The notes under the pieces are model-generated. The model saw only the letters and a program-made list of their open reading frames with translations, searched no databases and had not been told where the DNA came from. Below, piece by piece: positions 4,814 through 21,238 of a stretch of DNA of 36,319 nucleotides; positions within the stretch are counted from its first letter, which is position 1, and the number at the start of each line of letters is the position of its first letter. The DNA is from Chthonomonadaceae bacterium (GTDB lineage Bacteria; Armatimonadota; Chthonomonadetes; Chthonomonadales; Chthonomonadaceae), in contig JANXSG010000068.1 of NCBI GenBank assembly GCA_025352825.1, positions 1 through 36,319 on the forward strand, in the 5' to 3' direction. Position numbers and translations under genes: made by a program.

Positions 4814-4888
4814 GAGCGGGCATCGGATTCGAACCGACTATTTCGAGTTTATGAGGCTCGCGTAGTAATCCATTTCTACTCGCCCACT
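4814..4888 (-). tRNA. tRNA with anticodon CAT (Met or Ile2 type)
   Basis: The minus strand folds as a full cloverleaf. The acceptor is AGTGGGC (4888-4882) with GCCCGCT (4821-4815). The D arm is GTAG/CTAC around a loop containing GG. The anticodon arm is CGAGC-CTCATAA-ACTCG, giving anticodon CAT with T33, and its last pair is C-A. The T arm is GTCGG-TTCGAAT-CCGAT. CCA is not encoded. The sequence cannot tell elongator Met from lysidine-modified Ile. It has its own promoter just upstream and is flanked by complementary 9-base segments (4810-4818 and 4893-4901). Confidence 0.9.
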
Positions 4889-19952: not shown

Positions 19953-20083
19953 AAGCGCTAGAGAACTTCCTTGTATATTTTAAGAGGCGAAAATTAGAGA
20001 ACTTCCTTACAGAAAAAATGAATAATTTGGAGACACACTTTAAGATCAAAATATAATATAATGATCTCGAAGTTCTTAACATC

Positions 20084-20126
20084 CTTGCCAAGGAAGAAGT
20101 CGCGAGTTCGAATCTCGTTTCCCGCT
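20084..20126 (+). other. attP: attP core, 3' half of tRNA-Gly(GCC)
   Basis: The core reads as a tRNA from the anticodon loop TTGCCAA (20085-20091, anticodon GCC) through the T arm GCGAG-TTCGAAT-CTCGT to the acceptor strand TTCCCGC and T at 20126. This is close to the 3' half of bacterial tRNA-Gly(GCC), as known from E. coli. Integration would rebuild the host tRNA gene. Encoded CCA does not follow; identity ends at the discriminator base or shortly after. Confidence 0.85.
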
Positions 20127-20130
20127 TAAA

Positions 20131-20161
20131 TTGAGATCAAAATTTGCCGTTTTGATCTCAA
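20131..20161. repeat. 12-bp perfect hairpin between attP core and integrase
   Basis: TTGAGATCAAAA (20131-20142) and TTTTGATCTCAA (20150-20161) with loop TTTGCCG. It could be a terminator for read-through from the host tRNA after integration, or a recombination protein site. It lacks a plus-strand T tract. Confidence 0.5.
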
Positions 20162-20185
20162 AATCTTCCAAATTTCGCGTTTCCT

Positions 20186-21238
20186 GTGTCTCCAAATTTA
20201 TCTAAATTGGAGACGAAATTGCGTATTAGAGAACTTCCTTCCAGCAAATCCAAAACATCCTCTAGAGAACTTCCTTTCAAGCCGAAGACTCCTGCCGATC
20301 AAATAAATGCCTCAGAGTTGAAGCGCTTCGCGGCAGGCTGGATACTCGATTGCGAAATCCGCCATCACTCAAACGAAACCATCAAAAACCGTAAATTAGT
20401 GCTCGAAAAATTATGGTGGCATTGTGAACAATCTAACATCAATACTGTAGATCGCGACACAGTACGCAACTTCCTCGCATATGCGGCCAGCTGCCCGACC
20501 GGAGGCCGCTGGGGCAACCCTCGCAATCATCGCAAAGTCTCAAACGGCACCATCGCCAGCTACCACCGAATCCTGCGCGCCTTCGTGAACTGGATCTCCC
20601 ACGAACGTAAATCCCCTCTCACCATTATGGAAAATATTGCTGCGCCAATCGACCGGCCTGATGAAATCACCCCCTTCACACGCGATCAAGTCAAAGCGCT
20701 ACTCCATGCAACTAAAACATCAGACTACCCTCAGCGCGATCTCATCATCGTGCAACTTCTCTTCGACACTGGTATGAGGGCTTCAGAACTCTGCTCGATC
20801 AAAACTTCAGATGTCGATATCGCGGGAAGATGTTTCTCAGTAGTGGGCAAAGGCAACAAAAAAAGAACCATCAACTATGGCACTCAATGTGCCGGCGCCA
20901 TGTGGAAATACCTCGAAACGCAGCATCAAGAACCACATGGCTATCTCTTCAACTCCGAGCGCGGAATGACAATCGGGAATCCATTCACACGCTCAGGCCT
21001 CGGCGATCTCATCGTGCGCTTGGCTAAGAAAGCAGGGCTAGAAAACGTACGCGCCAGCCCCCATACATTCAGGCATACATTCGCTGTCGAGTACCTAAAA
21101 AATGGCGGCGATCAATTCAGCTTAATGCAGATACTCGGCCACACAGATAGCAAGATGACGGCGCGATATGTCCATATGGCAAAAGCAGATGCCGCTGCCC
21201 AGCATCGCCGCTTCAGCCCCGCTGATAACCTAAAATAA
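20186..21238 (+). CDS. int: Tyrosine-recombinase integrase
   Basis: A 350-residue integrase from GTG 20186; TTG 20219, with GGAG six bases upstream, is an alternative start. The N-terminus is basic and contains two RELP elements encoded by arm-type sites. A core-binding domain runs about 40-155 (AGWILDCEIRHHSNETIKNR). The catalytic domain has Arg198 (DTGMRASELC), a Lys region (GKGNKKR, 222-227), HTFRH (His293, Arg296), LGHT (His319) and Tyr328 (MTARYVHMA). All catalytic residues are present. It acts on attP beside it. Confidence 0.95.
   Translation: MSPNLSKLETKLRIRELPSSKSKTSSRELPFKPKTPADQINASELKRFAAGWILDCEIRHHSNETIKNRKLVLEKLWWHCEQSNINTVDRDTVRNFLAYAASCPTGGRWGNPRNHRKVSNGTIASYHRILRAFVNWISHERKSPLTIMENIAAPIDRPDEITPFTRDQVKALLHATKTSDYPQRDLIIVQLLFDTGMRASELCSIKTSDVDIAGRCFSVVGKGNKKRTINYGTQCAGAMWKYLETQHQEPHGYLFNSERGMTIGNPFTRSGLGDLIVRLAKKAGLENVRASPHTFRHTFAVEYLKNGGDQFSLMQILGHTDSKMTARYVHMAKADAAAQHRRFSPADNLK

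Follow-up and report, generated by a model that had tools for sequence, protein, structure and literature searches.

Candidate core-type accessory half-sites that follow the target tRNA in the attP of a probable Armatimonadota phage with an arm-less integrase

The window analysed in this study is the whole of contig C215 (36,319 bp), one of the 298 contigs of a 4.87-Mb assembly. Its genes encode terminase, portal, major head, tape-measure and tail proteins, an endolysin, two HTH regulators and a tyrosine integrase. Around the start of the integrase gene (int), four identical 14-mers lie two on each side of half a tRNA gene, and the question raised by this locus is what these 14-mers are and what binds them. 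In the reading favoured here, to which we give as a whole a probability of about 0.8, the window would contain the attP and the integrase of a temperate phage of Armatimonadota, the arm-less integrase would target tRNA-Gly(GCC), and the four 14-mers would be accessory core-type half-sites bound by the integrase itself.

The host of the phage is very probably an armatimonadote, because the relatives found with the integrase are Armatimonadota genomes, of which the nearest are labelled Chthonomonas/Chthonomonadaceae. Given that an intact attP sits mid-contig, the phage was probably sequenced in a non-integrated form. A phage-borne tRNA-Met gene with the anticodon CAT was also identified by ARAGORN at 4814-4888 of the window on the minus strand.

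The attP and its target tRNA gene

The four 14-mers noted in the sequence-only reading were confirmed as exact copies of TAGAGAACTTCCTT. They start at 19959, 19995, 20227 and 20263, are all on the + strand and follow one another at spacings of 36, 232 and 36 bp. No further exact copy was found anywhere else in the assembly (4.87 Mb), and a control with the pattern reversed gave 0. The core between them had been described as the 3' half of tRNA-Gly(GCC) at 20084-20126, and it is this half, over a slightly wider identity at 20082-20127. The features of the region are as follows:

19959-19972, + strand: putative accessory half-site P (outer), TAGAGAACTTCCTT, offset -128 from the anticodon
19995-20008, + strand: putative accessory half-site P, TAGAGAACTTCCTT, at the conserved position -92
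20071-20084, + strand: presumed left core half-site C, placed by its position beside the anticodon loop
20082-20127, + strand: attP/attB identity, tRNA-Gly(GCC) 3' half, from the anticodon stem to just beyond the 3' end
20085-20091, + strand: anticodon loop TTGCCAA, predicted 7-bp crossover (overlap) region, from the sequence and from tRNA-targeting tyrosine integrases (PMC8371274)
20159-20172, + strand: possible degenerate P'1 site (weak), TCAAAATCTTCCAA, near the +76 site of relatives
20188-20214, + strand: hairpin GTCTCCAAATT/AAATTGGAGAC pairing the int Shine-Dalgarno GGAG, directly before the int start
20227-20240, + strand: putative accessory half-site P', TAGAGAACTTCCTT, at the conserved position +140, 8 nt after the int start codon
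20263-20276, + strand: putative accessory half-site P' (outer), TAGAGAACTTCCTT, inside the int ORF, offset +176
20219-21238, + strand: int, tyrosine integrase of 339 aa with core-binding and catalytic domains only, predicted start TTG at 20219

The presumed left core half-site consists of a left half of the phage's own and the first letters of the tRNA identity. Tyrosine integrases that target tRNA genes are established to cross over in the anticodon loop (e.g., PMC8371274). P'1 is degenerate in the phage of the window. The TTG at 20219 is taken as the int start because it lies 8 nt before the 20227 copy, in accordance with the 8-nt rule of the relatives that is described below.

Further repeats were observed at this attP. 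A perfect 14-nt inverted repeat, AATTTGGAGACACA/TGTGTCTCCAAATT, is located at 20024-20037 and 20185-20198, one part on each side of the core. Similarly, GATCAAAAT..GATCTC repeats are found at 20040-20071 and 20131-20162, also on either side of the core, and one of them makes a hairpin just past the tRNA half. Both pairs could be excisionase, bending or terminator elements.

The attP carries the 3' part of a tRNA of the host, which would make the gene complete again upon integration, as is typical of tRNA-targeting attP sites. A complete tRNA-Gly(GCC) gene is present in the same assembly at C212:12190-12261, and it is identical to the window over the 46 bp of 20082-20127. Downstream of this gene is the decayed P' arm of a related element, which is 76% identical and has no adjoining integrase; the tRNA gene and the decayed arm together occupy C212:12190-12373 (L006 1474-1657). 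The decayed arm keeps TTGAGAACTTCCTT, which matches the 14-mer at 13 of 14 positions and lies 99 nt past the tRNA, in the place of the window's 20227 copy. Thus, the target that the sequence-only reading had predicted from the attP is named by a gene in the same assembly, and the 14-mer has been kept while its surroundings decay.

Positions 20 to 33 of the host tRNA-Gly read TAGAGCGCTTCCTT, which the arm site TAGAGAACTTCCTT matches at 12 of 14 positions, a near but not perfect copy. The matching part of the tRNA comprises the 3' strand of the D-stem and the 5' strand of the anticodon stem. As the attP holds the 3' half of the tRNA only, this is the half of the target that is absent from attP.

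The integrase and the arm sites of its relatives

An N-terminal domain of the integrase had been expected to bind the 14-mers. No N-terminal arm-binding domain was found in this integrase by Pfam or in its AlphaFold model, and the sites of relatives change with the target tRNA. Pfam identified only a SAM-like core-binding domain and a catalytic domain (PF00589, E 3.9e-37). In the AlphaFold model, whose mean pLDDT is 83, a low-confidence coil extends to residue ~28 and is followed directly by the core-binding helices. Thus, the gel shift with the 'N-terminal domain' that had been proposed would aim at the wrong part of the protein.

The catalytic residues R187, K211, H282, R285, H308 and Y317 were invariant or nearly so among relatives. 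The nearest solved structures were those of XerA, Tn1549 Int (aa 82-397, without the N-terminal part), XerH and IntI4, followed at a lower rank by Brujita Int (5vfz). With an R-K-H-R-H-Y catalytic domain and without an arm-binding domain, the integrase has both characters of a simple tyrosine recombinase. Both characters of lambda-type integrases are missing, namely the arm-binding domain and arm sites that differ from the core half-sites, given the 12/14 match between 14-mer and tRNA. Simple tyrosine recombinases are a recognised minority in phages; one survey counted 27 phages that have them and 410 that have arm-domain enzymes (PMC8138268).

A scan of viral contigs with the single integrase sequence identified no relative; relatives were found with alignment A1. 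Their integrases are 28-48% identical, and they come from Armatimonadota, Chloroflexota and viral contigs, in a collection that misses elements located away from tRNA genes and those whose T-arms are weak. Among the published phages of INPHARED, only distant integrases were found, all below 60% identity and the best of them at 25-30%. Most of the Armatimonadota relatives lie immediately 3' of a tRNA gene, including those for Gly, Val, Glu, Pro, Ala, Asp and others, and in integrated relatives an intact tRNA is retained beside int. In one genome, two integrases of the same family were located 165 bp apart on opposite strands (G013:C402:6390-8497), one of which (L015) is beside a tRNA-Val gene.

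Copies of a half of the relative's own tRNA were found in the P' arms. For instance, the P' arm of L022 contains GCACTTCGTTCAC twice, that of L014 contains AGAGCGCCTCGTT and that of L028 contains CACTTGCTTT twice. The viral contig L125 has three copies of GGACGCCTCC, of which one lies in P and two in P'. When 67 loci were compared, the half of the cognate tRNA scored 9.49 against its own P' arm, as compared with 8.66 after permutation (z 8.0; 0/100000). When the comparison was slid along the tRNA, the excess match was confined to positions 22-35 in the sense and 36-51 in the antisense orientation (z ~9). This region is the anticodon stem with its immediate flanks, accompanied by the weaker mirror peaks that are expected from the palindrome of the stem. 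The 5' part of the D-arm, the T-arm and the acceptor showed no excess match to P' arms in the sliding scan.

Sites anchored on the 7-nt stem numbered 71, as compared with 24.6±4.9 when the tRNAs were permuted, and 48 of the 67 loci have a recognisable site; about one third of the individually called sites are expected by chance. These loci are related by descent, and permutation removes kinship only in part. With one locus per distinct stem sequence, 34 sites were found versus 10.4±3.3. Repeated sampling of one element therefore does not explain the co-variation. In the arm-less integrase set (n = 114), the count was 87 sites versus 31.7. Integrases with an arm-binding domain, collected likewise (n = 39, a set used in place of a smaller 17-tRNA set), gave 11 sites versus 9.2 and 10 versus 11.2, with neither side in excess. 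Co-variation is judged absent from the host flank 5' of the tRNA, where the 7-nt stem anchor gave 13 versus 11.7 (z 0.4); an earlier 10-mer query, a different version from the 7-nt anchor, had given z 3.0 in the host flank. For the pooled left side, in which host flanks and P arms are mixed, z was 3.8, a value to which no weight is given here.

Fixed positions of the arm sites and the int start

In the P arms of 39 attP loci that lack a complete tRNA, a count that leaves out loci too near a contig end, 22 cognate sites were found as compared with 8.8 expected (0/20000). They cluster at -92/-91 and -68/-67 from the anticodon. The -92/-91 site, which is that of the 19995 copy in the window, is also present in G007, G042, L125, L147, L148, L153 and L178. 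In G007 and G042, the far end of a prophage was located (~53.7 kb at a tRNA-Val gene and ~36.8 kb at a tRNA-Glu gene, respectively), and in both the attR has the site at -92. In the P' arms, Armatimonadota and some of the Chloroflexota loci share a site near +140. P' offsets were periodic near 10.7 bp (0/2,000 simulations), more weakly so when each offset was counted once. The copies of the window whose positions are conserved in relatives are thus those at 19995 (-92) and 20227 (+140), and the outer copies (-128 and +176) are additional to the common plan. The 36-bp spacing of the two pairs, to which the sequence-only reading had drawn attention, is real in the window, but it is not conserved and is particular to this phage.

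An ATG was located exactly 8 nt upstream of the site near +140 in 18 cases, and any other distance was found at most twice. In nearly all of the examined Armatimonadota relatives, a hairpin that pairs the Shine-Dalgarno sequence precedes int, with letters different from those of the window. This arrangement, with one copy exactly 8 nt past the start codon in many relatives and just after the Shine-Dalgarno-pairing hairpin, could suggest a role in RNA, in which the tRNA-like letters of the int mRNA would control int translation, for example by pairing with the 3' half of the tRNA or its precursor. However, copies also occur at fixed positions of the P arm, across the core, and in the non-coding P' arm, and their offsets are phased near 10.7 bp. 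Moreover, GGACGCCTCC of L125 matches the D-stem letters exactly, which pairing with the 3' strand of the anticodon stem would not need. Control at the RNA level is thus considered very unlikely.

Proposed function of the arm copies and comparison with known systems

Because the arm copies co-vary with the tRNA in relatives, they are read here as core-type half-sites. The integrase would recombine attP with the tRNA-Gly(GCC) gene, the crossover most likely taking place in the anticodon loop, and the 14-mers would be copies of the bacterial half-site that attP lacks. Its core-binding and catalytic domains would bind both the core and the arm copies. On attP, the arm copies would build a multi-protomer complex, which the bare tRNA attB would not have, and attP could be told from attB without an arm-binding domain. 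Such a complex could also drive synapsis or direction, as was proposed for DR1/DR2 of attI1 (PMC8946536). The presence of two monomers on each arm, which had been predicted from the paired copies, is possible. In addition, binding to the 20227 copy, 8 nt past the start codon, would let the integrase repress its own gene, and int may be held down in two ways, by this copy and by the Shine-Dalgarno hairpin. The earlier view of the 14-mers as arm sites of the integrase is retained insofar as they are very probably integrase sites, but a classical arm type is not supported, as they are near copies of a tRNA half.

If the 14-mers were classical lambda-type arm sites, they would be bound by a separate N-terminal domain and be unrelated to the core. 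Their arrangement as direct repeats that flank the core on either side does resemble that of many phage attP sites. However, neither Pfam nor AlphaFold gave an arm domain, the first ~28 residues being a low-confidence coil, and the sites co-vary with the core half-site of the tRNA, a co-variation that arm-domain integrases do not show. We regard classical arm sites as highly improbable. The 14-mers might also be bound by another protein, such as an excisionase or the phage repressor, and the attP does hold the further symmetric repeats at 20024/20185 and 20040/20131. Such a protein, however, would gain nothing by following the anticodon stem from target to target among the relatives, and its involvement appears very improbable indeed. 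Finally, functionless tRNA fragments left as scars by repeated integration and excision, which the decayed related P' arm beside the host tRNA-Gly might recall, are hardly credible, since the copying is limited to ~14 nt around the anticodon stem to the exclusion of the rest of the tRNA, the positions are fixed at -92, -68 and +140, and a decayed copy with an overall identity of 76% still keeps the 14-mer at 13/14.

Among known systems, the nearest precedent for accessory half-sites of an arm-less integrase is, by analogy, DR1/DR2 of the integron attI1. They are bound by IntI1, are reportedly dispensable for attI1 x attI1 recombination but favour attI1 x attC, and are possibly topological filters (PMC8946536). 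Similar to the window, attI1/IntI1 combines an arm-less tyrosine recombinase with two supplementary, core-like direct-repeat sites beside the core (PMC8946536), a likeness that concerns architecture only. Different from the window phage, integrons insert cassettes at attI rather than recombining with tRNA genes and have two accessory sites, whereas the sites of the phage flank the core on either side and change with the target tRNA. No array of cassettes was noticed in the phage. With lambda-type systems, the window shares integrase sites that flank the attP core, and tRNA genes are common targets of both. Lambda-type integrases, however, need the N-terminal arm-binding domain and use arm sites unrelated to the core, and the arm-domain set examined here was without co-variation.

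Brujita-type simple integrases of mycobacteriophage are reportedly arm-less and directionless. Similar to the window integrase, which has 5vfz among its structural matches, a likeness of structure only, they are phage integrases without an arm-binding domain (PMC8138268). Different from the window, the Brujita system has a tRNA-like T-arm inside gene 34. KplE1 IntS and other integrases that reportedly control their own gene from within the att region (PMC2951348) resemble the layout proposed for the window in having integrase sites that overlap the int control region.

The resemblance of tRNA anticodon arms to core sites is an old idea (PMC8371274). Arm sites that copy and follow a half of the target tRNA were not found described in open-licence papers; such sites, changing with the target, lying on both sides of the core and occurring in two phyla, are what appears new relative to that literature. 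In the usual view, it was the acquisition of an arm-binding domain that gave the integrases of mobile elements regulated and directional integration (PMC8138268). The family of the window integrase appears to reach the layout of arm-domain systems without that domain, by means of target half-site copies in its arms. That it represents a widespread class of arm-less phage integrases, which assemble a regulated complex on attP out of additional attB half-site copies, with consequences for target switching and for the coupling to int, is somewhat better than an even bet. If so, switching to a new tRNA would need a concerted change of three to five arm sites and of the core-binding specificity. 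Target recognition would, in addition, be coupled to int expression through the copy that has its fixed place 8 nt past the start codon. Moreover, the DNA specificity of these integrases would be readable from sequence alone for many tRNA targets in two little-studied phyla, the discrimination of attP from attB by arm-less phage integrases becomes directly testable, and the results could help in choosing small integrases for laboratory use.

The two parts of the accessory sites differ from each other. The inner 7 nt track the tRNA, and the outer half tends to a constant yAGA-C, even where the tRNA differs (e.g., tRNA-Met). Outside the stem, the sites showed no clear preference for B over B', and the yAGA-C outer half also resembles general tRNA features. 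The difference between the two parts suggests a recognition site with a fixed outer and a variable inner part.
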